From a virus, in the IMG/VR virus record IMGVR_UViG_3300022538_000065, positions 1 through 22,787 of that record: 22,787 nucleotides of DNA; one strand, 5' to 3'. The notes beneath the pieces were generated by a model. It had not been told where the DNA came from. It did not search any database and was given only the letters and a program-made list of their open reading frames with translations. Each line of letters begins with the position of its first letter. Positions within the stretch are counted from its first letter, which is position 1. The position numbers and the translations under genes are program-made. Positions 2 through 13,258 of this stretch are shown one piece after another.

Positions 2-2053
2 ATTGCAACAGAAGTTTTTGGTGGCGGTGGTGAAGCTTTCGGTAAACTTCTCAAGTCTGCGGAATTTAAGAAATCTCTTGGCGAGGCAACTTCTGAAGGT
101 CTTTTGGGTATTGGTGCTTCTGGAACTACTCAATTAATGAAAGGTAGATTTAGAGGACAAGGATTCCAGTTTGCAAGAAAAACTGGGGCTATTTGGGGCG
201 AAGAGGTTGCTGCTATGAGATCTGTTCAATCTTCTATTAGTCCTTCTGTATATGCACACAATAAGATGTCTATTGATATGGAATATTTTGCTGGCAGAGC
301 TATAGGCGATATTCCAGTTTCTGAATTAAAAGGTATTCCTAATATTGCAGAAGAAGTAACAGGAGCTTTTGGTAAATTACATAAAGCTGGATATAGACAT
401 GGAGATCCTCATCTAGGCAACGTAATGATGATAGATACTCCTATGGGGCCTCGAGTAGGATTAATAGATTTTGGTGCAGCCAAAAAACTTTCTAGTTATT
501 CACCTGGAGAAGCAGTTCAACAGATTGCAACTGATATTGATGTAGCTGGTGGTGGATTGAAACAATTAATGGGTGGGTCGGCACAAATGTTCAGACCTGC
601 ATTTATGCAATCTGCAGTACAGCCTGTTCAAGAAATAGCTGAAGAGTTAGATATACTTGATATTGCTATGGGAGCCGCACCTAATAAGATTCCTAGTAAA
701 TTTCCTGCTATGCCCGAAGGCCATACATTAGCGGCCCAAGTCAGAGAAGAATTAACTGAATTCAAAGGAGATTTCGCTTCCAGGTGGGATCCGATGAGAA
801 AACTTGCTACTAAGATATATGGTGGTGCTGAACCTGCTGCATTTAAGAAACTAATAGAATCTAAAGAGTTTAGAGGTGCCATGGGAAGAGCTCTTAAGGG
901 AGAATATAAGATTATTGGTACGGGCTCTATGGCTGAGGCGCGATCATATAAAGCCAATCTTAAAATTGGTGGAGAAACCGAATCTTTCGACTTTGTTGCT
1001 AAAGTAGCTCTTGGGGCTGACCGAAAAGTATCAAGTGGCACAGGTATATTAAGATGGGAGAAAACTCTTGAAGGGAGTTATAAAGCAGAGACTAAAGCAT
1101 TGCAAGAATTAGGTACTGCCCGAGCCCCTTCGTTATATGGAGCTGGCGAAGAATTTGGTTTAAGAAATACAATCCTTATGGAAAAGTTTACAGATGTTAA
1201 ACCCTTGGCTAAGGATTTAACGGATGTAGAACATTCTACTTTAAAAGAATTTATTCAAGACGCTCATAAGAAGGGGTTTACTCATACTGACTTGCATGGT
1301 GATAATATTGTTAGAGTAATGACTCCTGAGGGCAAACCAGAAGTTGGTGTATTGGACTGGGGTATGGCAAATAGATTTGAAAAGTCTGCTGGCGTAGGTG
1401 CTCATCAGATAGAAGCAGGAGAGCAAGCATTTGGTCTTCTACAAGAAGTTTCTCAAGAAAGATTAGGTAAAGGAATTACTCTCCACGAGTATTCGCAAAT
1501 GGCTGATTTAGCTAGATTAGGATCTCATAGATTAGCAAAAGCCAATGATCCGACAAGTAAATTGGGTATATACGGGATTAATGCAATATATGATGTAGGG
1601 AGTAGCCGTGTATCTGAGGAATCTCTTAAAACTGTATTTGGTCATGTATTAGATTATCACAAGTCTACTAAGTCAACTTTAGCACCTATTATATCAGGAG
1701 AACCACTTGTATTTAAAACTCTGGTTAAAGGCCGGCCGGCAAAAATGATAGAGGATGTAGAACTTCCTCCGGATAATCTAGATAAAGCTATTGTTGCTAA
1801 TAAACGTATTGATAAAATGGCTCACGATAAAACTTTATTAGCAGAGAATGAGGCTACTATGGCAATTTTAACTAAAGCTGATAGTCCTCGTAAAGAATTA
1901 AAGCGAAAGATTGCAATAGATTCAATAACTATTGCTGCTAAAAGAAATAAACGATTTTATGACCGATCTCAACAATCAGTTGGTATCGGATTACGAAGTG
2001 CTAGTCGAGCTACTAAGGGCCATACTGGGTTTGGCTCGACAACCATTAGTTAA
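2..2053 (+). CDS. Tandem kinase-like domain virion protein (5' end outside window)
   Basis: The reading frame is open from base 2, so the start lies upstream and 683 residues are visible (numbered here from base 2). Two kinase-like domains follow each other. Domain 1 has a glycine loop GIGASG (36-41), a lysine in FARK (60), a helix-C-like glutamate (67), the catalytic loop HGDPHLGN (133-140) and IDFG (155-158). Domain 2 has IGTGSMAEA (305-313), VAK (lysine 334), a glutamate (363), HTDLHGDN (428-435) and LDWG (451-454). The catalytic-loop style resembles the ABC1/UbiB, RIO and aminoglycoside-phosphotransferase side of the kinase superfamily rather than classic Ser/Thr kinases. Each domain is preceded by a similar leader helix, so the unit was duplicated. 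About 230 residues after domain 2 lack a recognisable fold and end in a Gly/Ser-rich tail. Kinase-like identity is clear from motifs; substrate, and whether the protein is packaged in the virion, are inference from its position before the terminase. Confidence 0.85.
   Translation: MATEVFGGGGEAFGKLLKSAEFKKSLGEATSEGLLGIGASGTTQLMKGRFRGQGFQFARKTGAIWGEEVAAMRSVQSSISPSVYAHNKMSIDMEYFAGRAIGDIPVSELKGIPNIAEEVTGAFGKLHKAGYRHGDPHLGNVMMIDTPMGPRVGLIDFGAAKKLSSYSPGEAVQQIATDIDVAGGGLKQLMGGSAQMFRPAFMQSAVQPVQEIAEELDILDIAMGAAPNKIPSKFPAMPEGHTLAAQVREELTEFKGDFASRWDPMRKLATKIYGGAEPAAFKKLIESKEFRGAMGRALKGEYKIIGTGSMAEARSYKANLKIGGETESFDFVAKVALGADRKVSSGTGILRWEKTLEGSYKAETKALQELGTARAPSLYGAGEEFGLRNTILMEKFTDVKPLAKDLTDVEHSTLKEFIQDAHKKGFTHTDLHGDNIVRVMTPEGKPEVGVLDWGMANRFEKSAGVGAHQIEAGEQAFGLLQEVSQERLGKGITLHEYSQMADLARLGSHRLAKANDPTSKLGIYGINAIYDVGSSRVSEESLKTVFGHVLDYHKSTKSTLAPIISGEPLVFKTLVKGRPAKMIEDVELPPDNLDKAIVANKRIDKMAHDKTLLAENEATMAILTKADSPRKELKRKIAIDSITIAAKRNKRFYDRSQQSVGIGLRSASRATKGHTGFGSTTIS
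5..88 (+). repeat. Kinase-unit leader repeat, copy 1
   Basis: Encodes residues 2-29 of the partial kinase protein. It aligns with copy 2 on the pattern ATxxxGGxxxAFxKLxxSxEFxxxxGxA. The match is at protein level; the DNA has diverged. It directly precedes the glycine loop of kinase domain 1. Confidence 0.75.
806..892 (+). repeat. Kinase-unit leader repeat, copy 2
   Basis: Encodes residues 269-297 and sits just before the glycine loop of kinase domain 2, at the same distance as copy 1 from domain 1. The spacing of 267 residues between copies defines the length of the duplicated unit (leader helix plus kinase). Confidence 0.75.
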
Positions 2054-2097: not shown

Positions 2098-2673
2098 ATG
2101 TTAGGTGGAATAGTAAGTGCGATGGGGCATGTAGGACGCTTTGCTAAAAGAGCAGGTATTGGTGCTGCTGCAGGTGGTGCTCTAGGGCTTATGAATACAG
2201 GTGACTTGGGTGGCATGGCCGGCGGAGCTGCTATGGGTGCTGCTGCGGCCGGTATAGGCATACCAGCTGTTTCTAGAATGGCTTCGAATAGAGGATTATC
2301 TTTTGCTGGTGCTGCTGGCAGTGGATTAGGATTCTTAGGTAGAGGTGCTGCAAAAATGAGAGGGGCTGGTATCGGTATGATGGGTCGTGGTGGTAGGATT
2401 GGAAGCAATGTAGGACTAGGAATGAGTGCAGCAGGTCGTCTCGGTGTTAGTGGAGCTACTGCAGGTATTTCTGCTCTTGGTAGACCTGGTGTTAGTATTG
2501 CTGTAAATAAATGGGGCGGTCGTGGATTAGCAGCTATGGGCGTCGGTTCTGCTGCATATATAGGCTCATCTGTAATCGGATCTAATCGAGGATACAGCGG
2601 ATCAGCTGGACTTATGGGTGGCTCTCTTCCACAGATGGGCAAACTACCCACTATTGAGGACCGTATAAAGTAA
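2098..2673 (+). CDS. Gly/Ala-rich glycine-zipper protein, probable virion-internal or membrane-active
   Basis: A 191-residue protein dominated by Gly and Ala. Start ATG 2098 is fixed by a strong SD AGGAGGT at 2084-2090. Residues 20-55 are a nearly continuous GxxxG/AxxxG pattern, and further Gly-rich stretches with regularly spaced Arg or Lys run to about 175 (for example around 80-115 and 115-135). The last 15 residues are polar, ending TIEDRIK. No signal peptide or enzyme motif is visible. Glycine-zipper sequences are known for tight helix packing in membranes and pores. Between the kinase gene and the next glycine-zipper gene, a role in genome ejection or as an internal head protein is plausible but unproven. 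The family is not recognised. Confidence 0.85.
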   Translation: MLGGIVSAMGHVGRFAKRAGIGAAAGGALGLMNTGDLGGMAGGAAMGAAAAGIGIPAVSRMASNRGLSFAGAAGSGLGFLGRGAAKMRGAGIGMMGRGGRIGSNVGLGMSAAGRLGVSGATAGISALGRPGVSIAVNKWGGRGLAAMGVGSAAYIGSSVIGSNRGYSGSAGLMGGSLPQMGKLPTIEDRIK

Positions 2674-2689: not shown

Positions 2690-3463
2690 ATGGCATACAA
2701 TAATTGGTTTCCCAAAAATCCAAATCCAGATCCTGGATTCTTAGGCAAAACTCGTTGGTCTACTCATGTTTGGGGAAGACAAACCTTTGCTAAGGGTTTT
2801 GCTCGAGGAGGATTGGCATATACAGCATTTGCGCCTAGTCGTAAGGAAATGTTATTAAGCCCTTGGAGAATGAAAACTCATCCTGGTTCTGCTCAATATA
2901 TAGAGAATCTTAGAAAGCTTCAAAGTATAACTCCGGCAAATAAAAGCAGAAGAATAAATAAAGCTATAGAACAGGCTCGTAAAGCTAAGCCTAGAGGTAT
3001 GAGTGGTCATTTATTGGGCATTGGCATGACTGCAGCAGTAGTTGTAATACCTGCTATGATGGCTGAAGGTGGATTGCATGAGAAGGCTAGAGTGGCTACT
3101 ACTGGTATTGGCCTAGAAGCCGGCTGGCTTGTGGGATCAAAAGCAGGTATGGGTATTGGGGCAGCAATTGGTAGTTATGTTCCTATAGTTGGAACTGCAG
3201 TAGGTGCTGGTGTGGGATGGATTGCTGGTGGTATCGCCGGAGGTATTGCTGGGGGAGAATTAACAGAGGCTTTAACTCGGATACCAGATCGTATGGTAGA
3301 TAAAGAACGAGAACGCCGCAGGTTAGACTGGGGCCAACATACTAAAGCTTTTCAAACACAAAGAGCCCATACAATGAGGCAGCAATCCTTAGCTGCTATG
3401 AATCGTGGACAAATGTCTGCTCGTTCATTATTGGGCCAGGAATCTGTATTTGTACATAGGTAG
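2690..3463 (+). CDS. Glycine-zipper protein with hydrophobic segment, probable virion-internal protein
   Basis: A 257-residue protein starting 16 bases after the previous gene; ATG 2690 has only a weak AAAGAG-type SD. The N-terminal 100 residues are basic and aromatic (Trp/Pro-rich start, then a Lys/Arg helix at 70-102). Residues 105-125 form a membrane-like hydrophobic stretch, and 137-190 are a long glycine zipper (repeated GxxxG, for example GAGVGWIAGGIAGGIAGG). The C-terminal part, 195-257, is charged and helical with a run of Glu/Arg at 205-212. The layout of basic head, membrane-inserting centre and charged tail fits an ejected, membrane-active virion protein better than a soluble enzyme. 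No catalytic motif is seen. Function is inference. Confidence 0.87.
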   Translation: MAYNNWFPKNPNPDPGFLGKTRWSTHVWGRQTFAKGFARGGLAYTAFAPSRKEMLLSPWRMKTHPGSAQYIENLRKLQSITPANKSRRINKAIEQARKAKPRGMSGHLLGIGMTAAVVVIPAMMAEGGLHEKARVATTGIGLEAGWLVGSKAGMGIGAAIGSYVPIVGTAVGAGVGWIAGGIAGGIAGGELTEALTRIPDRMVDKERERRRLDWGQHTKAFQTQRAHTMRQQSLAAMNRGQMSARSLLGQESVFVHR

Positions 3464-3494: not shown

Positions 3495-5432
3495 ATGCCA
3501 TTAGAATCATCTGATACCCTTGTTGATCTGAGACAAATTAGTCTACCTTTTGATTTAGATGAGGTTTCTGAGCAATGTCATAAGTGTGTTCGTAAGCAGC
3601 TAAAGAAATATGAGAAGTTTGTTGACAATGATAGCAAATCAACCAAAGATAGATTTATTGTCCCTTGTACTGGAATACCAAAAGAATATATTAATCCTAG
3701 TTTGAAACCTATGTTTCCTACCGAGGAAGCTTGGGAAGAAGCTGTATCAACTTTAGACATAGTTAAATGGGTAGCAAGAAACTTAAAATTACCTAACGGA
3801 GAATATTGGATTGCTAGATGGTACCAAGAAGAAGTTTTAAGATGCTCATCTAAACGTAAAGTTCTAAGAATGGCCAGAAGGATCGGCAAAACAGATAGTG
3901 TATGTGTCGAAATTTGTTATCGTTTATTTACTGAGTCTAATATAAAAATTGTTGTGGCTGGTCCTCAAAAGTCACATACAGAAGAAATTATTACACGTGT
4001 TCGTGCTTTTATAAAAAATAATTCTATTTTATCCAGTATGGTAACTAGAGATGTTTCTGCACCATGGTATGAAATATTACTTAGTAATGGTTCTAGACTT
4101 CGTGGTTTTGCTGCAGGTACTAAGGGTAAGGGCGCCGGGACTGGTGTTCGTGGCCAGGACGCTGATTATCTTTACATCGAGGAGATGGATTTTGTAGACG
4201 AAAATGCTATTCGGGGAGCTGTTCTGCCTATTCTACAAACTACTCCAGATACTGCATTGGTAGGCTTCTCTACCCCGTCAGGATTTCAGACCCCCTATTA
4301 TATGTTGTGCGAACAAAGCCCCAACTATATAGAATTCCATTATGACTACAAAGTACTATCTCACTGGCGAAATGTAGAGATGGAGCGTTCTGCATTCACA
4401 GAAGAAGACTGGCAGCATGAGTTCCTTGCAAGCTGGGGTTCATCTGAATCGGGCGTATATAAACCATCATATATCGATAGAGCTCTTAAGGTTTATAAAT
4501 ATTCAGATATATCTTATTCGCCTATGTGGAGATACTGTATCGGAACTGATTGGAATGAAAAATATGGTACTGAGTTAGTTGTTCTAGGATACGATACAGC
4601 GACAGGTAGATTTCAGGTAGTAGAGACGGTTCGAGTTGAAGGGATGGAATTTACACAGCTTGCTGGTATTAATAGGTTATTAGAATTAAACAAGAAGTGG
4701 AAGCCAGTTTTTATATATATAGATTCGGGAAATGGCAGCACGAACCATGAATTATTAAGGAAAACAGCCATGGAAAACAGACATCCTGGCGGAGATAGAG
4801 ATACAGCAAAACTTTTAGATATTTTAAAGAAGTATGACGCTGGAGCTTCAATTAGCATTAAAGATCCTATAACTAGTGAGGAAAGTAAAGTGCCAGCTAA
4901 GGCATTTATGGTAAATGCTTCAATTCGTATGTTCGAACAAAATAAAATAAGTATTTCTTCCCACGATAATATTTTAGAAAAGCAGTTAAGAAATTATATC
5001 ATCGAACGTTATACTCCTACAAAAGCTCCGGTATATGGATTAGAGAATAAACAGATATTAGATCATAGACTTGATGCCCTTAATTTGGCTATTGTTGCTT
5101 TTCATTTAGAATTTGATGACTTGCATACAGTACATGTGGTAACATCTGTAGCAGCTATTCCGGATCCCAGAACACAGTCAGGTTATAAAAACAGAATGGC
5201 ACAACGAGATCAAGAATATAATCCAGAAGATCGTAGATTAGAAGGACCTTTAAATAAAAGCTCGACATATTTTAGGACTCCAGCTAGATTAGATAATATG
5301 AGAGGCACAACTAAAATTGATAGGCCTGGTTGGGATTATGATCGAGAAGACGAGAGAAGAGCAGAATGGCTACAGAGACGAAGAACTAGAGCTCGTATTC
5401 AGCGAGATCGCCCAAAACGCACAACATTTTAA
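3495..5432 (+). CDS. terL: Terminase large subunit (packaging ATPase and headful nuclease)
   Basis: A 645-residue DNA-packaging motor protein, close in length to T4 gp17. The ATPase domain shows a terminase-type Walker A RMARRIGKT (125-133), Walker B YLYIEE (225-230, with catalytic E230) and coupling motif FSTPSG (258-263). The RNase-H-like nuclease domain shows GTDW (D352), YIDSG (D410) and LDHRLDALN (D523, D527), the expected acidic triad regions. The N-terminus has a CHKC pair (28-31) of unknown meaning. The last 60-70 residues are strongly Arg-rich and look disordered, which would suit DNA or portal contact. Start ATG 3495 has AAGGA at 3484-3488. The protein should dock on the portal and cut and pump DNA with a small terminase subunit, which is not recognisable in this window. 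Confidence 0.97.
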   Translation: MPLESSDTLVDLRQISLPFDLDEVSEQCHKCVRKQLKKYEKFVDNDSKSTKDRFIVPCTGIPKEYINPSLKPMFPTEEAWEEAVSTLDIVKWVARNLKLPNGEYWIARWYQEEVLRCSSKRKVLRMARRIGKTDSVCVEICYRLFTESNIKIVVAGPQKSHTEEIITRVRAFIKNNSILSSMVTRDVSAPWYEILLSNGSRLRGFAAGTKGKGAGTGVRGQDADYLYIEEMDFVDENAIRGAVLPILQTTPDTALVGFSTPSGFQTPYYMLCEQSPNYIEFHYDYKVLSHWRNVEMERSAFTEEDWQHEFLASWGSSESGVYKPSYIDRALKVYKYSDISYSPMWRYCIGTDWNEKYGTELVVLGYDTATGRFQVVETVRVEGMEFTQLAGINRLLELNKKWKPVFIYIDSGNGSTNHELLRKTAMENRHPGGDRDTAKLLDILKKYDAGASISIKDPITSEESKVPAKAFMVNASIRMFEQNKISISSHDNILEKQLRNYIIERYTPTKAPVYGLENKQILDHRLDALNLAIVAFHLEFDDLHTVHVVTSVAAIPDPRTQSGYKNRMAQRDQEYNPEDRRLEGPLNKSSTYFRTPARLDNMRGTTKIDRPGWDYDREDERRAEWLQRRRTRARIQRDRPKRTTF

Positions 5433-6895: not shown

Positions 6896-8938
6896 ATGTC
6901 ACTTTTACAGGAAGAAATACCAGTTGGGAATGACGGGAAGCAATTAGCAGAGAAAGTTTCAACTGAAGGAGTAGAGGTTAATCTTCTTAATCCTTATGAG
7001 CAGACAGATTATGGTGTAATTGTTAAGGCTTTTGAGGTCGAGACATCTAACTGGGCCGAAGAAGACTATGCACTTGCTTCCCATTATAGAGATGTTTATG
7101 GCACACAACACTTTTCGCAGCGTGTGCGCGAACAGATGAATTATTATCCTGGGATGCATCAAACAAATGCCAATATACCGGCTACTGATCCTCAATATAC
7201 TAATGCCAAAGAGATGGCTGATGACAGATTGAACTTCTGGAATAATGCAATGGATAATCCAGATGCGTTCATGAATGGTGTTCGTCAAAGACAAAGGGAT
7301 TTTGACTACACTAAGATCTTTGGACCAGATTCATCTGCTAAAGAACGTGGTCGTGAACTTGGCAAGATGTTGACGGAATGTATTCCGTGTTTTGATAGAT
7401 TATTAGATCCGGGTTCACTTTTACCTAATGGAGATCTTCTAGAAATACATGCTTTAAATATCAAAATACGAACAGATATCCTGGATAAGATCCGTAATTT
7501 ATTTAAGGACCCCGGGGCATATATTGATATTTGTGAATTGTTAAAACTATTCTCTCATTTATGTCCACAAGACTTGCTGGCTATTCTAGCAATGCTAACT
7601 CAATATTTAGCTAAACTTAATTTAGATGTCAAATTCAATATAGATTTTATAATTCAACTAGTTGGTCCTATTTTAAGTCCTTTCTTAGATGCTCTAAGTC
7701 AGTGGTTAGATAAGTGGATCCAAATGATTTTAGCACCAATAATTTGTGTGGTGGATCATATCAATGAGACTATTTTAATTGCACGGAGTGCACAAATCCC
7801 ATTCTCTGATATTAGTTCAAATGTTGATTTGGATATAGGTGTTGCTGGGCCGGCTCATAGAAATACTGCAGGAGAGTTTGGCGGAGGATTTGATACTGGT
7901 ATTGGTAATAAGAATAAGGGTGTTTTTGATAAAGATAATACAGATCCTCATGGATCTGCTTGGGGTGATTGGCAATGGGAACAATTTAATACTCCAGAAG
8001 AACAAAAGTATAATCCTGAAATTCCCAGAGTCCCTAAAGAAGAAATACAAATGTCTGGAGAAGAAATTTCAGAAGCATGGTCTCCTTCATTCTCGGAAGC
8101 AGAACGTGAAGAACGAAATGCTCAGTGGCAGGAACTTAAGCAGCGAGAAGAACAAAAAAGACGTAAGGTTCCAGCTCCATTACAACGCTCTAAAGCAGAC
8201 GGTACTCGTTGGAGTAAAGATGACATTCCAAATTCTGAAAAACATATAGCTGGAGGAGAGTGGGAAGCTGGTTATCATCCTCCCGAACAACAAGACCGAC
8301 CAGCAGAAACCGCTACGTATCTTGATGTATCTCCACTAATTAACTCTATTGTTCAGATGCGTAATATTTTGCAGGCTGGAATTCAATATGTACGTGATTG
8401 GTTTACTTATGTTACCCAAATGATTTATGATTTATTAGGAACTGATATTGGCTGGATGCAAAAGAAAGCAGATAATACAATGATGAAATCTCGTATTATA
8501 CAGCTAATAATGATGATTCAGTCTATTATTAGAGCAATTGCTCAGAATGGTCTTGAATGTGGTACTCATAGTAATTTTAATCCAGCTCAGATGAAATATA
8601 TTATAGAAAGAGAGTTAAATAGCCGAACAGATTCTACTTTTATAGTGAACGATGACGGATCTATAACTCTTATACCAGCGGGCAGTACTCCAGAAGCTGA
8701 AGTTCAAGACAATAGTGCATTGGATGCAGATGCACTTGATACTACTACAACTGGAGTTATTCCATCCAAGATTCCAGGTGTTTTACCAAGTGAAGAAATA
8801 GTTGAACCTTCCTCTGAAGAACAAAATCAGGTACAATCAGGTATTGTTATTAGAGATTGTTTTAAAGATGTTAATCAGGAAGATTTAGAGAAAGTTAGAA
8901 GTTGGATTAGAGATTTCGAGAAGAGAGGTAAGGTTTAA
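6896..8938 (+). CDS. Large unknown virion-region protein between terminase and portal (680 aa)
   Basis: The ATG directly follows the upstream TAG, and the TAA shares one base with the portal ATG, so translation is likely coupled. Residues 1-150 are polar and Trp/Tyr-rich. Residues 150-300 contain Cys residues (C162, C165, C213, C223) and several strongly hydrophobic helices at 226-300, amphipathic or membrane-like. Residues 320-475 are Gly-, Trp- and charge-rich and probably extended, with a charged helix at 400-425. Residues 478-556 are again helical and hydrophobic, and the C-terminal 100 are acidic with a final charged helix. No enzyme motif recognised. Tight coupling with the portal suggests a head-vertex, internal-core or neck role, which is inference. 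Confidence 0.87.
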   Translation: MSLLQEEIPVGNDGKQLAEKVSTEGVEVNLLNPYEQTDYGVIVKAFEVETSNWAEEDYALASHYRDVYGTQHFSQRVREQMNYYPGMHQTNANIPATDPQYTNAKEMADDRLNFWNNAMDNPDAFMNGVRQRQRDFDYTKIFGPDSSAKERGRELGKMLTECIPCFDRLLDPGSLLPNGDLLEIHALNIKIRTDILDKIRNLFKDPGAYIDICELLKLFSHLCPQDLLAILAMLTQYLAKLNLDVKFNIDFIIQLVGPILSPFLDALSQWLDKWIQMILAPIICVVDHINETILIARSAQIPFSDISSNVDLDIGVAGPAHRNTAGEFGGGFDTGIGNKNKGVFDKDNTDPHGSAWGDWQWEQFNTPEEQKYNPEIPRVPKEEIQMSGEEISEAWSPSFSEAEREERNAQWQELKQREEQKRRKVPAPLQRSKADGTRWSKDDIPNSEKHIAGGEWEAGYHPPEQQDRPAETATYLDVSPLINSIVQMRNILQAGIQYVRDWFTYVTQMIYDLLGTDIGWMQKKADNTMMKSRIIQLIMMIQSIIRAIAQNGLECGTHSNFNPAQMKYIIERELNSRTDSTFIVNDDGSITLIPAGSTPEAEVQDNSALDADALDTTTTGVIPSKIPGVLPSEEIVEPSSEEQNQVQSGIVIRDCFKDVNQEDLEKVRSWIRDFEKRGKV

Positions 8939-11115
8939 TGGCAGTAACTCGTAGACAAACTAAAAAGTCTTCTACCAATATTATAATAAAGACTAGTTCT
9001 AAGAATAGTGGCCTTAAAAAACAGAGAACAATTATTCCCAAAGTAATTCCTTCCCCTGTTAAAGTATATACATCTAATATTGGACGTTCTCGAGCTAACG
9101 CACTTCGATGGGAAGTTCCAGAATGGGATTTAACTGAAACTGGTCGAATTCTGGATACTGAATCATATTTCAGGAGAGCTTGTAAGAATAAGAAAAATTT
9201 ATTTCTTAAAGAAGGTTATGATTTCGTAGGACCTAATCTTGATAGAGTTATTTATGTTAGAAAGCGTATCCGTCAAATGGAAGAAGCGACAAACTTACCA
9301 TTTGAAGTACTAATAAGCCAGGCTTCATCTTCGCTAACTAGAGCCTCTAATGCTTTTTGGGTAAAAGCCAGGAAGGATAAAGCTTCGGGTGGCAAAGTAC
9401 GTGTCAATGCCAATGGGAAGAAACTAGATCCTATAGCTGGATATTTCCCTTTACCAGCTGAAACTGTCAGATTCAAACGAGATGAGTATGGCAAGATCAA
9501 AAAGTATATGCAAGAGGTGTATGGCAAAACCGCAAAAGAGTTTGCACCAGAAGATGTTGTACATTTTTGTTTTAATAAGAGAGAAGGATATGCTGTTGGT
9601 ACGCCAGATGTAGTAGCTGTTAAGGATGATATTAGAGCATTACGACGTATTGAAGAAAATATAGAATTATTACTTTATCAACACTTGTTTCCTCTTTTCC
9701 ACTATCAGGTTGGTACTGAAAAGCAGCCTGCAGCTGTGTTCTCTGATGGTAGTTCTGAAGTGGAGGACATCCAACTTAAAGTTGCTCATATGCCTTCTGA
9801 TGGTTGTTGGGTTACACCAGAACGGCATAAGATTACACCTCTACAGGCAGATGGCCCTCCGATTGCAGTAGATAAAGTTATCGCCCATTTTAAACAACGT
9901 ATTTTTACTGGTTTAGGTCTTAGTTCAGTGGATATGGGCGAGAGCGGATCAAGTAACCGGAGCACGGCTCAAACATTATCTAGAAACTTAATAGATGATA
10001 CAAAAGCAGATCAAAAAGAATTCGCTTCACAATTTAAAGCATACATTATTAAAGAATTATTATTAGAGAGCACCTTTTCTGAACTAACTCTTTTTGAAGA
10101 TGAGAATCTTGTAAATCTTAAATTTAAAGAGATTGATTTCGAATCTAGACAAGCTAAAGAAAATCATTTTGTAGATATGTTTGAGAAGAATGCTATTACA
10201 CATGACGAGATGAGGTTGGAATTAGGATATGATCCATTTGAAGGTGAAGGCTGGCCTACATCTAGTAATAAGGCCCAAATGATTCGTAAAGGTGATGGAG
10301 ATTGGGCGAGGACAAATTATGGAATTATCGGAAGAGATAAAGTAATATTACAGTCTTTAGATGAGCCTGGCACCGATGCATCTAAGAGCGAAACAAAATC
10401 TCGAACTGTTCAAAATAAGAATAAACCTGCTAATCAGCATGGGGTTAGATCTAGCACTAAAATAAATAAAGATTCTTTTGGAACTAATAATCCAATATCT
10501 ACACTTGATGTTGTATTTAATCAAAGGGCTCCTTTCCAAAGTATTTACAAAGACTTACAAGTTGATGTGACTACACAGATAAGATATAGGGGTTTTAAAT
10601 CTAATGAGGTTAAATTATTAATTGGCAGCGCCTTCGCTAGAGCAAAAGATTATTTAGTTTCATTGTCACAAAAAGCATATCGAATTGGATTACGTAATGC
10701 CGGTGTGGAAGTCTGGCAGGTTCAGTTAGATAAAGCAGATATTTTAATTCACGATCATATAAATAAGTATACGGGAAAGTTAAGGAAAACGTTATTGAGT
10801 ACAATCGAGCGTAATACGATAAAGAATATAAAACTAAAATCAGAAGATGCAATCATTACTGGCTTAGTGTTTGATAGTCTTAAACATCGTACCGCCATGC
10901 TTGATAATAGTGAAATTATGCGGGCTTACAACTATGGCAAAGTTAGTGGTTATCGTGTTTTGGGCGCTCCTCAAATGAAATCTTTCCGTCATGGCAATAC
11001 GGCATGTGATATTTGCGACAAACATATTTTGTTTTACAAAGAATCCAATGTTATAATTTATGATGAATTACCACCATTTCATCCACACTGCACTTGCGAA
11101 ATGGTAGTAGGATAA
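8938..11115 (+). CDS. Portal protein with fused MuF-like C-terminal domain
   Basis: A 725-residue fusion. The first 30 residues are basic. The portal core covers about 50-450, recognisable from its clip/stem pattern: residues near 211-260 (DVVHFCFN, a GTPDVV turn, a long helix, then LFPLFHYQVG) and a helix with SRQAKENHF near 402-410. A polar linker spans 470-530. Residues 530-725 resemble the Mu gpF / SPP1 gp7 minor head protein family, ending in a metal-site-like pattern: CDIC (690-693) and PPFHPHCTC (712-720). The portal forms the ring through which terminase packages DNA. MuF domains are minor head proteins that associate with it, so the fusion fixes one copy per portal subunit. SD-like GAGAGGTAAGG lies inside the end of the upstream gene. 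Confidence 0.92.
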   Translation: MAVTRRQTKKSSTNIIIKTSSKNSGLKKQRTIIPKVIPSPVKVYTSNIGRSRANALRWEVPEWDLTETGRILDTESYFRRACKNKKNLFLKEGYDFVGPNLDRVIYVRKRIRQMEEATNLPFEVLISQASSSLTRASNAFWVKARKDKASGGKVRVNANGKKLDPIAGYFPLPAETVRFKRDEYGKIKKYMQEVYGKTAKEFAPEDVVHFCFNKREGYAVGTPDVVAVKDDIRALRRIEENIELLLYQHLFPLFHYQVGTEKQPAAVFSDGSSEVEDIQLKVAHMPSDGCWVTPERHKITPLQADGPPIAVDKVIAHFKQRIFTGLGLSSVDMGESGSSNRSTAQTLSRNLIDDTKADQKEFASQFKAYIIKELLLESTFSELTLFEDENLVNLKFKEIDFESRQAKENHFVDMFEKNAITHDEMRLELGYDPFEGEGWPTSSNKAQMIRKGDGDWARTNYGIIGRDKVILQSLDEPGTDASKSETKSRTVQNKNKPANQHGVRSSTKINKDSFGTNNPISTLDVVFNQRAPFQSIYKDLQVDVTTQIRYRGFKSNEVKLLIGSAFARAKDYLVSLSQKAYRIGLRNAGVEVWQVQLDKADILIHDHINKYTGKLRKTLLSTIERNTIKNIKLKSEDAIITGLVFDSLKHRTAMLDNSEIMRAYNYGKVSGYRVLGAPQMKSFRHGNTACDICDKHILFYKESNVIIYDELPPFHPHCTCEMVVG

Positions 11116-11131: not shown

Positions 11132-13258
11132 ATGGCAGTAATAATTCAATTCAAAGATTATTTTAGACTAAGCAAACCAACAGATACAGAGCTTGCTCAA
11201 TTTAAAGAATTTCTTAATATTCCTAATAACGGGAAATCTTTATTTATCAAGATGGAAGCTACTCATGCTGGGTTTGTTAATAAAAATAATCGTTACTATA
11301 TTCCATCTCGTATGAATGAGGGTGTTTCTACCTTTCGAACAGAAGAAAAGCCTACAAAATTATTGAAGCATCATAATGCCAATAGTGATCCTGTAGGAGT
11401 GATCCGAGGCGCCAGATTTATTCCAACTATTCCTGAGGATCTTCAGGATAACCCTGATGTTATGACATTAATGAGTAGCAGTGCTCCTATCAAGAAACAA
11501 TTAAAGGCAATGAGGAATCTGCAACGAGCTGGTATAATAAATAGAGAGGGCTGGCGAGGCCTTGGGTATATTGAGCTCATTGCAGAAGTGATGGACCAAA
11601 CTACTATTGGACAAGTTCAAGATGGTCGGTATGATGCAGTTTCTACTAATTTTCAGTCCCCAAGTGCGGTTCATTGTTCTATATGTGGCCAAAATGTTTT
11701 AAAAGACGGCTGGTGCGATCATGACTTGGGTGAATTATATAAAGAGGATGGAGCTGCCGACAAGGATGATTTTAAGTTTGTAGCACAATTAATTCCGGCC
11801 GAACATGAATATTTAGAGGCCAGTTTTATCACTTTTGAAGGAGATCCTTTGGTTAGTATTGATATTCTTGATACTAAAGACAAAGGCAAAACTGAACAAC
11901 TTCCAATGCCTGATAAATGGCAGGAGGACAAACAGTTAGGTAACTTAAGTTATCAATTTAAAGATTCTGCTAAGGAGGGCAAAATGGCATTACCAAATAA
12001 GAAAGTCACTCTTTCCGAGACAGAACAGGCAGCTTTTGATGTAATTAAAAAGCTAAGAGCTGATGTTAAGGAAGAGGATCTTTTGGTATTAACTCAAGAT
12101 GTAATGAAGATAATTAATTCTAAAAGCTTTATCACTGACAAAGAAGAACTAGAGCTCAATGATGAAACAGCTATTCTTTATGCTCTTGAAGATGTTGAGA
12201 CAAAAGATCAAAAAATTAATAGCGATGAAATTTGCGATGGTTTGCAAGAGGAATTCGCCAAAATGAGAGATGAAGGTTTGTTAACTGAAGAAGAATTTAC
12301 TGCAGCCGATGCAAAACTTTCAACACAACAGAGGAAAAAGCTATCTAAGTCTACATTCTGTGGACCAGAGAGATCTTTTCCTGTCCCTGATTGTGCTCAT
12401 GTTACTGCAGCCCGGAGGTTAATTGGAAGGTATAAAGGACCCGGGAACAAGGCTACTATTTTAGCCTGTGTGAGTCGCAAGGCTAAGGCTTTAGGCTGTA
12501 CGAAGGCAAAAGATTCTAATAATGTAGTAGAAGACAGTACTCTAAGTACTATTCCTTGTACAGAAGATAAACTTCAACACTTAGAAGATGGCGAACTGCG
12601 TTCACTGTTTCATGCTACTGAATTAGAACTTATTAAAAGAAATCAAACAGTTAAGCGCGACTGCAGTGATTGCGCTGTACATGTAGAGAAAGCAGAAAAA
12701 GCCGAAGAGCAACTATCAAAAACTAATAAGAATCTAACTGAAGCCGAAGTAACTTTATCGATTTTAAGGTCAGAGTTACAAAAGTCTTATATTGATTATG
12801 CAACTCAGGTAGACGAATCAGTTAAATTAGGAGTAGAGATTTATAAATTAAAAGCAGAAAAACTTGCGCTGGTTGGTGTTTTGACACAGAAGTATGATAA
12901 TCTTGATAAAGCGATGGAAGAACTAAAGGAATCAGATATTGACCAAGTGGGAATTTCTATAATGGATTCTTTTGATATTGAAAAAGCTGCCAAGAAACTT
13001 AATGACGGCCTAGCTAAAACACCACAAGGTACTGTAGAAGATCCTACAATCACAATTGATGGCGATAATACTTCGATTACAGATGATCTTTCTGCACCTG
13101 CACAAGCTGCTTTTGATAATATTAAAGAATTAATCGCAAAAGGCGAAGAAGAAAAAGCGAAACAGATCTATGATATAATGAAGAACATGGAAATGTTTCC
13201 CGAACAACTCAAATTTGAAGATCTTTCGGCGGACAAGAATGGAACCGCTGAAGTTTAG
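11132..13258 (+). CDS. Prohead protease fused to capsid scaffold
   Basis: A 708-residue protein starting at ATG 11132 (SD AAGGAG at 11117-11122). The protease half (about 35-250) has the expected His region LLKHHN (H80/H81), GYIELIAEV (145-153) and the Ser motif YDAVSTNF (S171), followed by EYLEASFITFEGDP (227-240). A CSIC...CDH pattern (182-185, 195-197) inserted after the Ser motif looks metal-binding. The second half (from 285) is scaffold-like: acidic and helical, with a Cys/His-containing module at 408-456 (FCGPERSFPV, then DCAHV) and a long coiled coil at 515-600. Such proteases cleave scaffold and capsid proteins during prohead maturation. An internal in-frame start at 11984 should produce the scaffold separately. 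Confidence 0.88.
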   Translation: MAVIIQFKDYFRLSKPTDTELAQFKEFLNIPNNGKSLFIKMEATHAGFVNKNNRYYIPSRMNEGVSTFRTEEKPTKLLKHHNANSDPVGVIRGARFIPTIPEDLQDNPDVMTLMSSSAPIKKQLKAMRNLQRAGIINREGWRGLGYIELIAEVMDQTTIGQVQDGRYDAVSTNFQSPSAVHCSICGQNVLKDGWCDHDLGELYKEDGAADKDDFKFVAQLIPAEHEYLEASFITFEGDPLVSIDILDTKDKGKTEQLPMPDKWQEDKQLGNLSYQFKDSAKEGKMALPNKKVTLSETEQAAFDVIKKLRADVKEEDLLVLTQDVMKIINSKSFITDKEELELNDETAILYALEDVETKDQKINSDEICDGLQEEFAKMRDEGLLTEEEFTAADAKLSTQQRKKLSKSTFCGPERSFPVPDCAHVTAARRLIGRYKGPGNKATILACVSRKAKALGCTKAKDSNNVVEDSTLSTIPCTEDKLQHLEDGELRSLFHATELELIKRNQTVKRDCSDCAVHVEKAEKAEEQLSKTNKNLTEAEVTLSILRSELQKSYIDYATQVDESVKLGVEIYKLKAEKLALVGVLTQKYDNLDKAMEELKESDIDQVGISIMDSFDIEKAAKKLNDGLAKTPQGTVEDPTITIDGDNTSITDDLSAPAQAAFDNIKELIAKGEEEKAKQIYDIMKNMEMFPEQLKFEDLSADKNGTAEV
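11972..11986 (+). promoter_or_regulatory. Internal ribosome binding site for nested scaffold
   Basis: AAGGAGGG at 11972-11979, four bases before the in-frame ATG 11984, lies inside the protease-scaffold gene. It is as strong as the SDs of the capsid and sheath genes in this window. It falls at the boundary between the protease half and the scaffold half, which argues against coincidence. Confidence 0.75.
11984..13258 (+). CDS. Nested scaffold protein (in-frame internal start)
   Basis: Same frame and stop as the protease-scaffold gene; the predicted product is 424 residues starting MALPNKKVTL. It would hold the whole scaffold region: an N-terminal helical motif, the FCGPERSFPV Cys/His module, a coiled coil and a C-terminal helical motif similar to the N-terminal one. 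This is the arrangement known from lambda, where Nu3 scaffold starts inside protease gene C. It would allow many scaffold copies per protease copy. The internal SD is directly visible; actual translation is inferred. Confidence 0.7.
   Translation: MALPNKKVTLSETEQAAFDVIKKLRADVKEEDLLVLTQDVMKIINSKSFITDKEELELNDETAILYALEDVETKDQKINSDEICDGLQEEFAKMRDEGLLTEEEFTAADAKLSTQQRKKLSKSTFCGPERSFPVPDCAHVTAARRLIGRYKGPGNKATILACVSRKAKALGCTKAKDSNNVVEDSTLSTIPCTEDKLQHLEDGELRSLFHATELELIKRNQTVKRDCSDCAVHVEKAEKAEEQLSKTNKNLTEAEVTLSILRSELQKSYIDYATQVDESVKLGVEIYKLKAEKLALVGVLTQKYDNLDKAMEELKESDIDQVGISIMDSFDIEKAAKKLNDGLAKTPQGTVEDPTITIDGDNTSITDDLSAPAQAAFDNIKELIAKGEEEKAKQIYDIMKNMEMFPEQLKFEDLSADKNGTAEV
12011..12115 (+). repeat. 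Scaffold helical motif, copy 1
   Basis: Encodes residues 294-328 of the protease-scaffold protein, at the start of the nested scaffold. Pattern LSxxxQAAFDxIKxLxA, followed by an acidic helix ending DVMK. It matches copy 2 near the C-terminus at protein level. Confidence 0.6.
13088..13189 (+). repeat. Scaffold helical motif, copy 2
   Basis: Encodes residues 653-686, with LSAPAQAAFDNIKELIA then an acidic helix ending DIMK. In known phage scaffolds the C-terminal helices bind the capsid protein. A similar motif at the other end could give the scaffold two like-acting ends. Confidence 0.6.

Follow-up and report, generated by a model that had tools for sequence, protein, structure and literature searches.

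Gene organization of the window

The window, a fragment of viral DNA 22,787 bases long, carries a cluster of head and tail genes of myovirus-like type, including genes for the terminase large subunit (TerL), the portal, a protease/scaffold-like protein, the major head protein, and the tail sheath. Upstream of the TerL gene, an ORF on the plus strand (2–2053) is open at the left edge of the window; it is 5′-truncated, and its 683 visible residues contain 2 complete kinase domains. The features of the region are as follows:

2..2053, + strand: 5′-truncated ORF, 683 aa visible, encoding the C-terminal portion of a multi-enzyme (polyvalent) protein of modular build
2..496, + strand: type A kinase cassette (cassette 1, RIO/Bud32-like), comprising a leader helix and a catalytic domain
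695..781, + strand: degenerate linker ahead of cassette 2 (KFPAMPEGHTLAAQVREELTEFKGDFAS), in a form common to type B kinases; disordered in the model
785..1411, + strand: type B kinase cassette (cassette 2), comprising a leader helix and a catalytic domain
1412..1939, + strand: low-confidence helical region 3′ of cassette 2, conserved in part among type B proteins
1940..2050, + strand: conserved basic C-terminal tail (RNKRFYDRSQQSVGIGLRSASRATKGHTGFGSTTIS), also found on relatives with differing modules
2098..2673, + strand: small Gly-rich protein, encoded between the genes for the multi-enzyme protein and TerL, with homologs in relatives
2690..3463, + strand: small glycine-zipper protein directly 5′ of the TerL gene; C-terminus TMRQQSL..MNRG.M.ARSLLGQE..FVH strongly conserved
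3495..5432, + strand: terminase large subunit
11132..13258, + strand: likely prohead protease/scaffold and possible processing enzyme; ATHAG...VST motifs conserved in homologs

The glycine-zipper protein has 79 homologous ORFs, some of them in relatives devoid of the linker described below. The protease/scaffold was assigned by its motif and by gene order in comparison with 0305phi8-36, and the MCP N-termini yielded no cleavage motif for comparison. The portal ORF (8938–11115) has a portal match at residues 53–435 and, close to the C-terminal end, a weak match to a head-morphogenesis domain (residues 639–723); it is possibly a portal-MuF fusion. The visible part of ORF 2–2053, whose N-terminal part lies outside the window, has no MuF match. 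Another late ORF (6896–8938, 680 aa) is conserved in size at the same place in relatives; it had no PHROG match and a marginal Pfam match only. Two exact probes of 26–30 bases for the upstream sequence matched no other viral contig, and the related contig L003, whose TerL is identical to that of the window, begins downstream of the kinases.

Two kinase domains with intact catalytic residues

The original prediction of 2 kinase-like domains, each with a full catalytic set, was borne out by Pfam, by a profile built from the family, by residue conservation, and by structure models. In Pfam, the whole protein matched ABC1 (E 2.4e-11) and APH (E 7e-10); the first half alone matched ABC1 with 27.4 bits (cut-off 22.9), and the second half alone matched APH with 21.7 bits, slightly under the cut-off. 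The family-built kinase profile recovered domains 1 and 2 with E values of 4e-41 and 5e-50, respectively. A profile search of the PDB with the kinase family placed twitchin and Rio2 at the top of the matches.

The catalytic residues are G36/G38, K60, E68, H133-x-D135, N140, and D156-F-G158 in domain 1, and G306/G308, K334, E363, H428-x-D430, N435, and D452-W-G454 in domain 2. Among 32 related kinase units from 28 proteins, the helix-C glutamate, both catalytic aspartates, and the glycine of the DxG motif are invariant, the catalytic lysine is present in 28 and the asparagine in 29, and the histidine of the HxD motif is replaced by asparagine in 8. The leader helix noted in both domains is real, yet most other units in the family have one as well. 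By these sequence criteria, the 2 domains are genuine kinase domains and look active.

Structure prediction agrees with a kinase fold for both domains. The domain 1 model (mean pLDDT 83, above 90 across the kinase core) had Rio2 and Rio1 as its best PDB fold matches, and domain 1 models confidently as a RIO/Bud32-type kinase with the lysine, glutamate, HxD, asparagine, and DxG of that type; beyond the DFG motif the model shows helices only, without a full C-lobe. The domain 2 model is less confident (mean 65, core mostly 75–95), with a low-confidence helical region beyond the core, and it matched protein kinases in general with modest TM-scores. Therefore, the case for domain 2, which has the same catalytic residues, rests mainly on its sequence. 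Each cassette is most likely a short atypical protein kinase of the RIO/Bud32 type and is predicted to be active.

The kinase pair comprises two old cassettes

The 2 domains were originally thought to be copies of one duplicated unit. Indeed, both have the leader-plus-kinase layout with intact catalytic residues, which would fit a local duplication in the phage of the window that produced a functional kinase pair. However, the 2 domains share only 26% identity, as against 40% between domain 1 and a unit of the related contig L026 and 48% between domain 2 and a unit of L002. In a maximum-likelihood tree, domain 1 groups with the units of L026 and L017 (support 97/95), and domain 2 falls in a separate nine-member clade (99/98). 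Tandem kinases are a minority state (the window, L008, L076, and L066), and the 2 units of L008 are arranged differently from those of the window. Because of the low identity and the different well-supported clades, a recent tandem duplication is not supported, and we consider local duplication very improbable; by their sequences, the 2 cassettes are old and evolved separately.

The multi-enzyme gene occupies a fixed locus in related phages

Related contigs were gathered by using TerL, the window protein, and its second kinase as scan queries. The equivalent ORFs encode 455–2418 aa and lie 1.2–3.4 kb upstream of the TerL gene. The predicted late-gene position upstream of the terminase holds throughout: in 62 of 62 loci, TerL followed the multi-enzyme ORF on that ORF's own strand, including loci found by a DNA pattern blind to TerL. 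The 62 loci are those in which a single stretch contains both TerL and a linker-bearing ORF (or the ORF of the window), and some duplicate one contig; about forty non-duplicate proteins occupy this one fixed locus. A kinase profile match was found in 13 of 16 long records, each time at the multi-enzyme gene, and several relatives have no detectable kinase. No cultured relative emerged from tblastn searches of 50,697 phage records with the window, L004, and L005 proteins, and the host search found no relative of the TerL in the genome collection.

Cutting the proteins at their linkers gave 140 segments that fall into 13 recurrent groups and 41 singletons, in varying order. The segments include (i) a staphylococcal nuclease (SNase) module, above the Pfam cut-off in 12 proteins; (ii) an N-terminal group supported as an RNase_H_2/DnaQ-like exonuclease module; (iii) a GNAT-like module, with weak PDB matches only; (iv) an ATP-grasp-like module, with at best weak Pfam R2K ATP-grasp matches (E 0.06–0.16) and nothing convincing in a PDB profile search; and (v) zincin-, ART-, and Cas4-like modules, which had no Pfam match, the Cas4-like module also having no match in a PDB profile search. 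The ATP-grasp-, zincin-, ART-, and Cas4-like labels are motif readings and are less certain. The multi-enzyme protein is thus a mosaic, in which the enzyme modules vary and the linker and tail stay. The original prediction that more units might lie upstream of the window is consistent with the lengths of the relatives, although the additional part consists mostly of other enzymes and not of a longer kinase array.

A conserved linker separates unrelated modules

The linker is approximately 36 aa in length, has the consensus FSGxDDxYNTIEGLxHxGxAxxxRxxxTDFGSG[YWF], and occurs in 1–6 copies per relative protein between mutually unrelated modules. Across 94 linkers, the phenylalanine is conserved in 100%, the following glycine and serine in 98%, the two glycines in 96%, the threonine/serine in 97%, and the arginine in 81%. 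A glutamate precedes the conserved glycine in 72%. Linkers that share a protein resemble each other little more (50%) than linkers of different proteins do (45%), and the nearest linker belongs to the same protein in 13 of 82 cases, which argues against recent homogenization by exchange within a gene. A membrane-like helix is present before only about 15–22% of the linkers; we thus rejected the idea that such a helix precedes every linker. In L024 (L107), 2 linkers of one protein (residues 278–304 and 700–726) are identical; they seem to belong to a two-module unit that is repeated, which would be a rare instance of recent duplication.

In 24 of the 32 related units, the kinase domain starts 0–8 residues past a linker. 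In relatives, the linker is followed by a WDPLR stretch, and domain 1 of the window protein begins in the leader immediately past the position of that stretch; therefore, a linker is predicted and probably lies just beyond the left edge of the window. The linker ahead of domain 2 has a degenerate form that other type B units also possess, and this form, the one that was modeled, is disordered in the model.

The linker was confined to this gene within the sequences searched. In 13 contigs of up to 197 kb, linker matches lay in one ORF per record, and by pattern no linker-like sequence was found in other proteins of the loci. Six linkerless relatives and phages ME3 and MTATph1 contained no linker. 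An exact DNA pattern of the commonest linker form, which is independent of TerL and which variant linkers would escape, found 33 matching stretches in viral contigs but no match in 257 Gb of bacterial and archaeal genomes. The consensus linker had a single match (E 3) among the 50,697 phage records, and nothing convincing.

The basic C-terminal tail

In most of the complete proteins, the C-terminus is a basic tail that bears a late Gly/His motif, regardless of the last module. The 2 small Gly-rich proteins encoded 5′ of TerL likewise have conserved C-termini. The idea of a packaging tag shared by the 3 neighboring genes was suggestive by eye and statistically weak: 97 real versus 25 shuffled C-termini matched at E <10, many of the matches being to the family itself.

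Comparison with known proteins

Phage polyvalent proteins have been proposed to be packaged in the capsid and injected (Iyer et al. 2017, PMC5512222). Like those proteins, the members of the present family are large and multidomain, join unrelated enzymes in variable architectures, and belong to phages with a portal and terminase; kinase, GNAT, ART, and zincin domains, which resemble the cassette repertoire here, also occur in them (PMC5512222). The relatives join unrelated enzymatic domains in one polypeptide, the truncated ORF of the window contains 2 kinases only, and the window encodes both TerL and portal. The parallel with polyvalent proteins, drawn originally from the window alone, agrees with the repertoire and variability of the relatives. 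Unlike the polyvalent proteins described, the present family is encoded by one gene at a fixed locus in one clade, with a recurring linker before its cassettes and a conserved C-terminal tail; in text searches of PMC5512222, no linkers, transmembrane parts, SNase, or Cas4 turned up. A constant frame with exchangeable cassettes was not found in the open-licence papers that were searched. The family is best read as a protein of a known kind in a new form, distinguished by the constant frame and conserved linker and clade-confined as far as searched.

The window kinases resemble the kinase family of polyvalent proteins in having a kinase core within a multidomain phage protein and possibly, at least in the model of domain 1, a short C-terminal subdomain. 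In that family, an insert separates the catalytic histidine from the aspartate (PMC5512222), whereas the HxD motif is contiguous in both window domains (HGD and HTD) and in the aligned relatives, which places the window kinases outside it. The earlier assignment to UbiB/APH-like kinases holds in part: the Pfam ABC1 and APH models match the catalytic stretch, but UbiB membership was rejected (TIGR01982, 32.8 bits versus a cut-off of 487.55), and the closest folds are those of RIO and Bud32. The UbiB loop is Ala-rich, in contrast to the Gly-rich loops of the window domains (GIGASG and GTGSMAE). Bud32 (TIGR03724) was the best NCBIfam match of the window protein, at 49.2 bits, far under the 125-bit cut-off; unlike Bud32, the window kinases are fused within a phage protein, and no Kae1/KEOPS partner was seen in the window.

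Proposed function of the multi-enzyme protein

We propose that the gene encodes a clade-specific polyvalent protein of exchangeable cassettes, which would be made late, packaged in the head, and ejected, and that the member in the window delivers 2 kinases (probability approximately 0.6). The fixed frame would comprise the recurring linker, often one membrane-like helix, and the basic C-terminal tail. The tail may aid packing into the head, and the protein would enter the host along with the DNA, where the kinases may phosphorylate host proteins and the cassettes of other phages may act on nucleic acids or further targets. Since the modeled linker is disordered and the linker core is kept beside unrelated domains, the linkers may be flexible segments that hold the cassettes apart and are read by a single partner from the phage, which could be a docking protein or a protease that releases the cassettes. 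More tentatively, and less likely than not, gene, linker, and tail may form a constant platform in which one partner reads every linker to load, cut, or thread the protein, so that any enzyme placed behind a linker would be delivered. In the giant phages SPN3US and phiKZ, ejection proteins are head proteins that are cut by the prohead protease and then ejected, at short xxE motifs (PMC5694885). A simple xxE prohead-protease site is not favored for the present linkers, in which glutamate occurs in only 72% and the strongest core is FGSG.

A late position by itself is insufficient proof of packaging, and the protein may instead stay in the cell or prohead, where its kinases would regulate assembly, for example by phosphorylating the neighboring capsid, scaffold, or terminase proteins. 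The fixed site adjoining TerL and the head genes fits such a role, as does the prohead protease/scaffold-like gene of the same cluster; nevertheless, the cassettes vary and include nucleases and other enzymes without evident assembly function, and the absence of a detectable kinase from several relatives makes a conserved assembly kinase unlikely, so that we regard this explanation as unlikely overall. It is still harder to view the domains as degenerate pseudokinases that serve for binding only: the replacement of the HxD histidine in a quarter of the relatives (8/32) would agree with this, but both units of the window and nearly all relatives retain the lysine, glutamate, aspartate, asparagine, and DxG, which renders it improbable.

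The linkers themselves could be remnants of cassette shuffling, either seams of recombination or inert spacers, that have no recognized function. The cassettes have clearly been shuffled between linkers, and a disordered linker region would also be expected of a spacer; yet a core (FGSG, the two glycines, arginine, and threonine/serine) is maintained at the protein level across very divergent phages, and linkers of one protein bear little trace of recent homogenization. On balance, we consider inert linkers rather unlikely and prefer linkers that are recognized by a phage partner.

Within the proposed polyvalent-protein reading, an odd pair of kinases becomes part of a family-wide pattern, in which the enzyme content changes and the linker and tail remain constant. 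If the protein is ejected, the cassettes would represent a catalog of activities that these phages employ as infection begins, and the short linker and tail would provide signals through which loading or processing can be tested. Through the conserved FGSG core, the processing of polyvalent proteins becomes directly testable.

Other features of the related loci

In most relatives, the multi-enzyme gene is directly preceded by a conserved ORF of approximately 265 aa with an acidic tail (L004:2446–3237 and equivalents), whose product could be a small terminase subunit. The TerL ORFs of L008 (8294–11563) and L029 (2784–7247) contain inteins, with Intein_splicing and LAGLIDADG_3 matches, and the lengths of the TerL ORFs of L009, L010, and L019 (about 1020–1110 aa) suggest that these also bear inteins.
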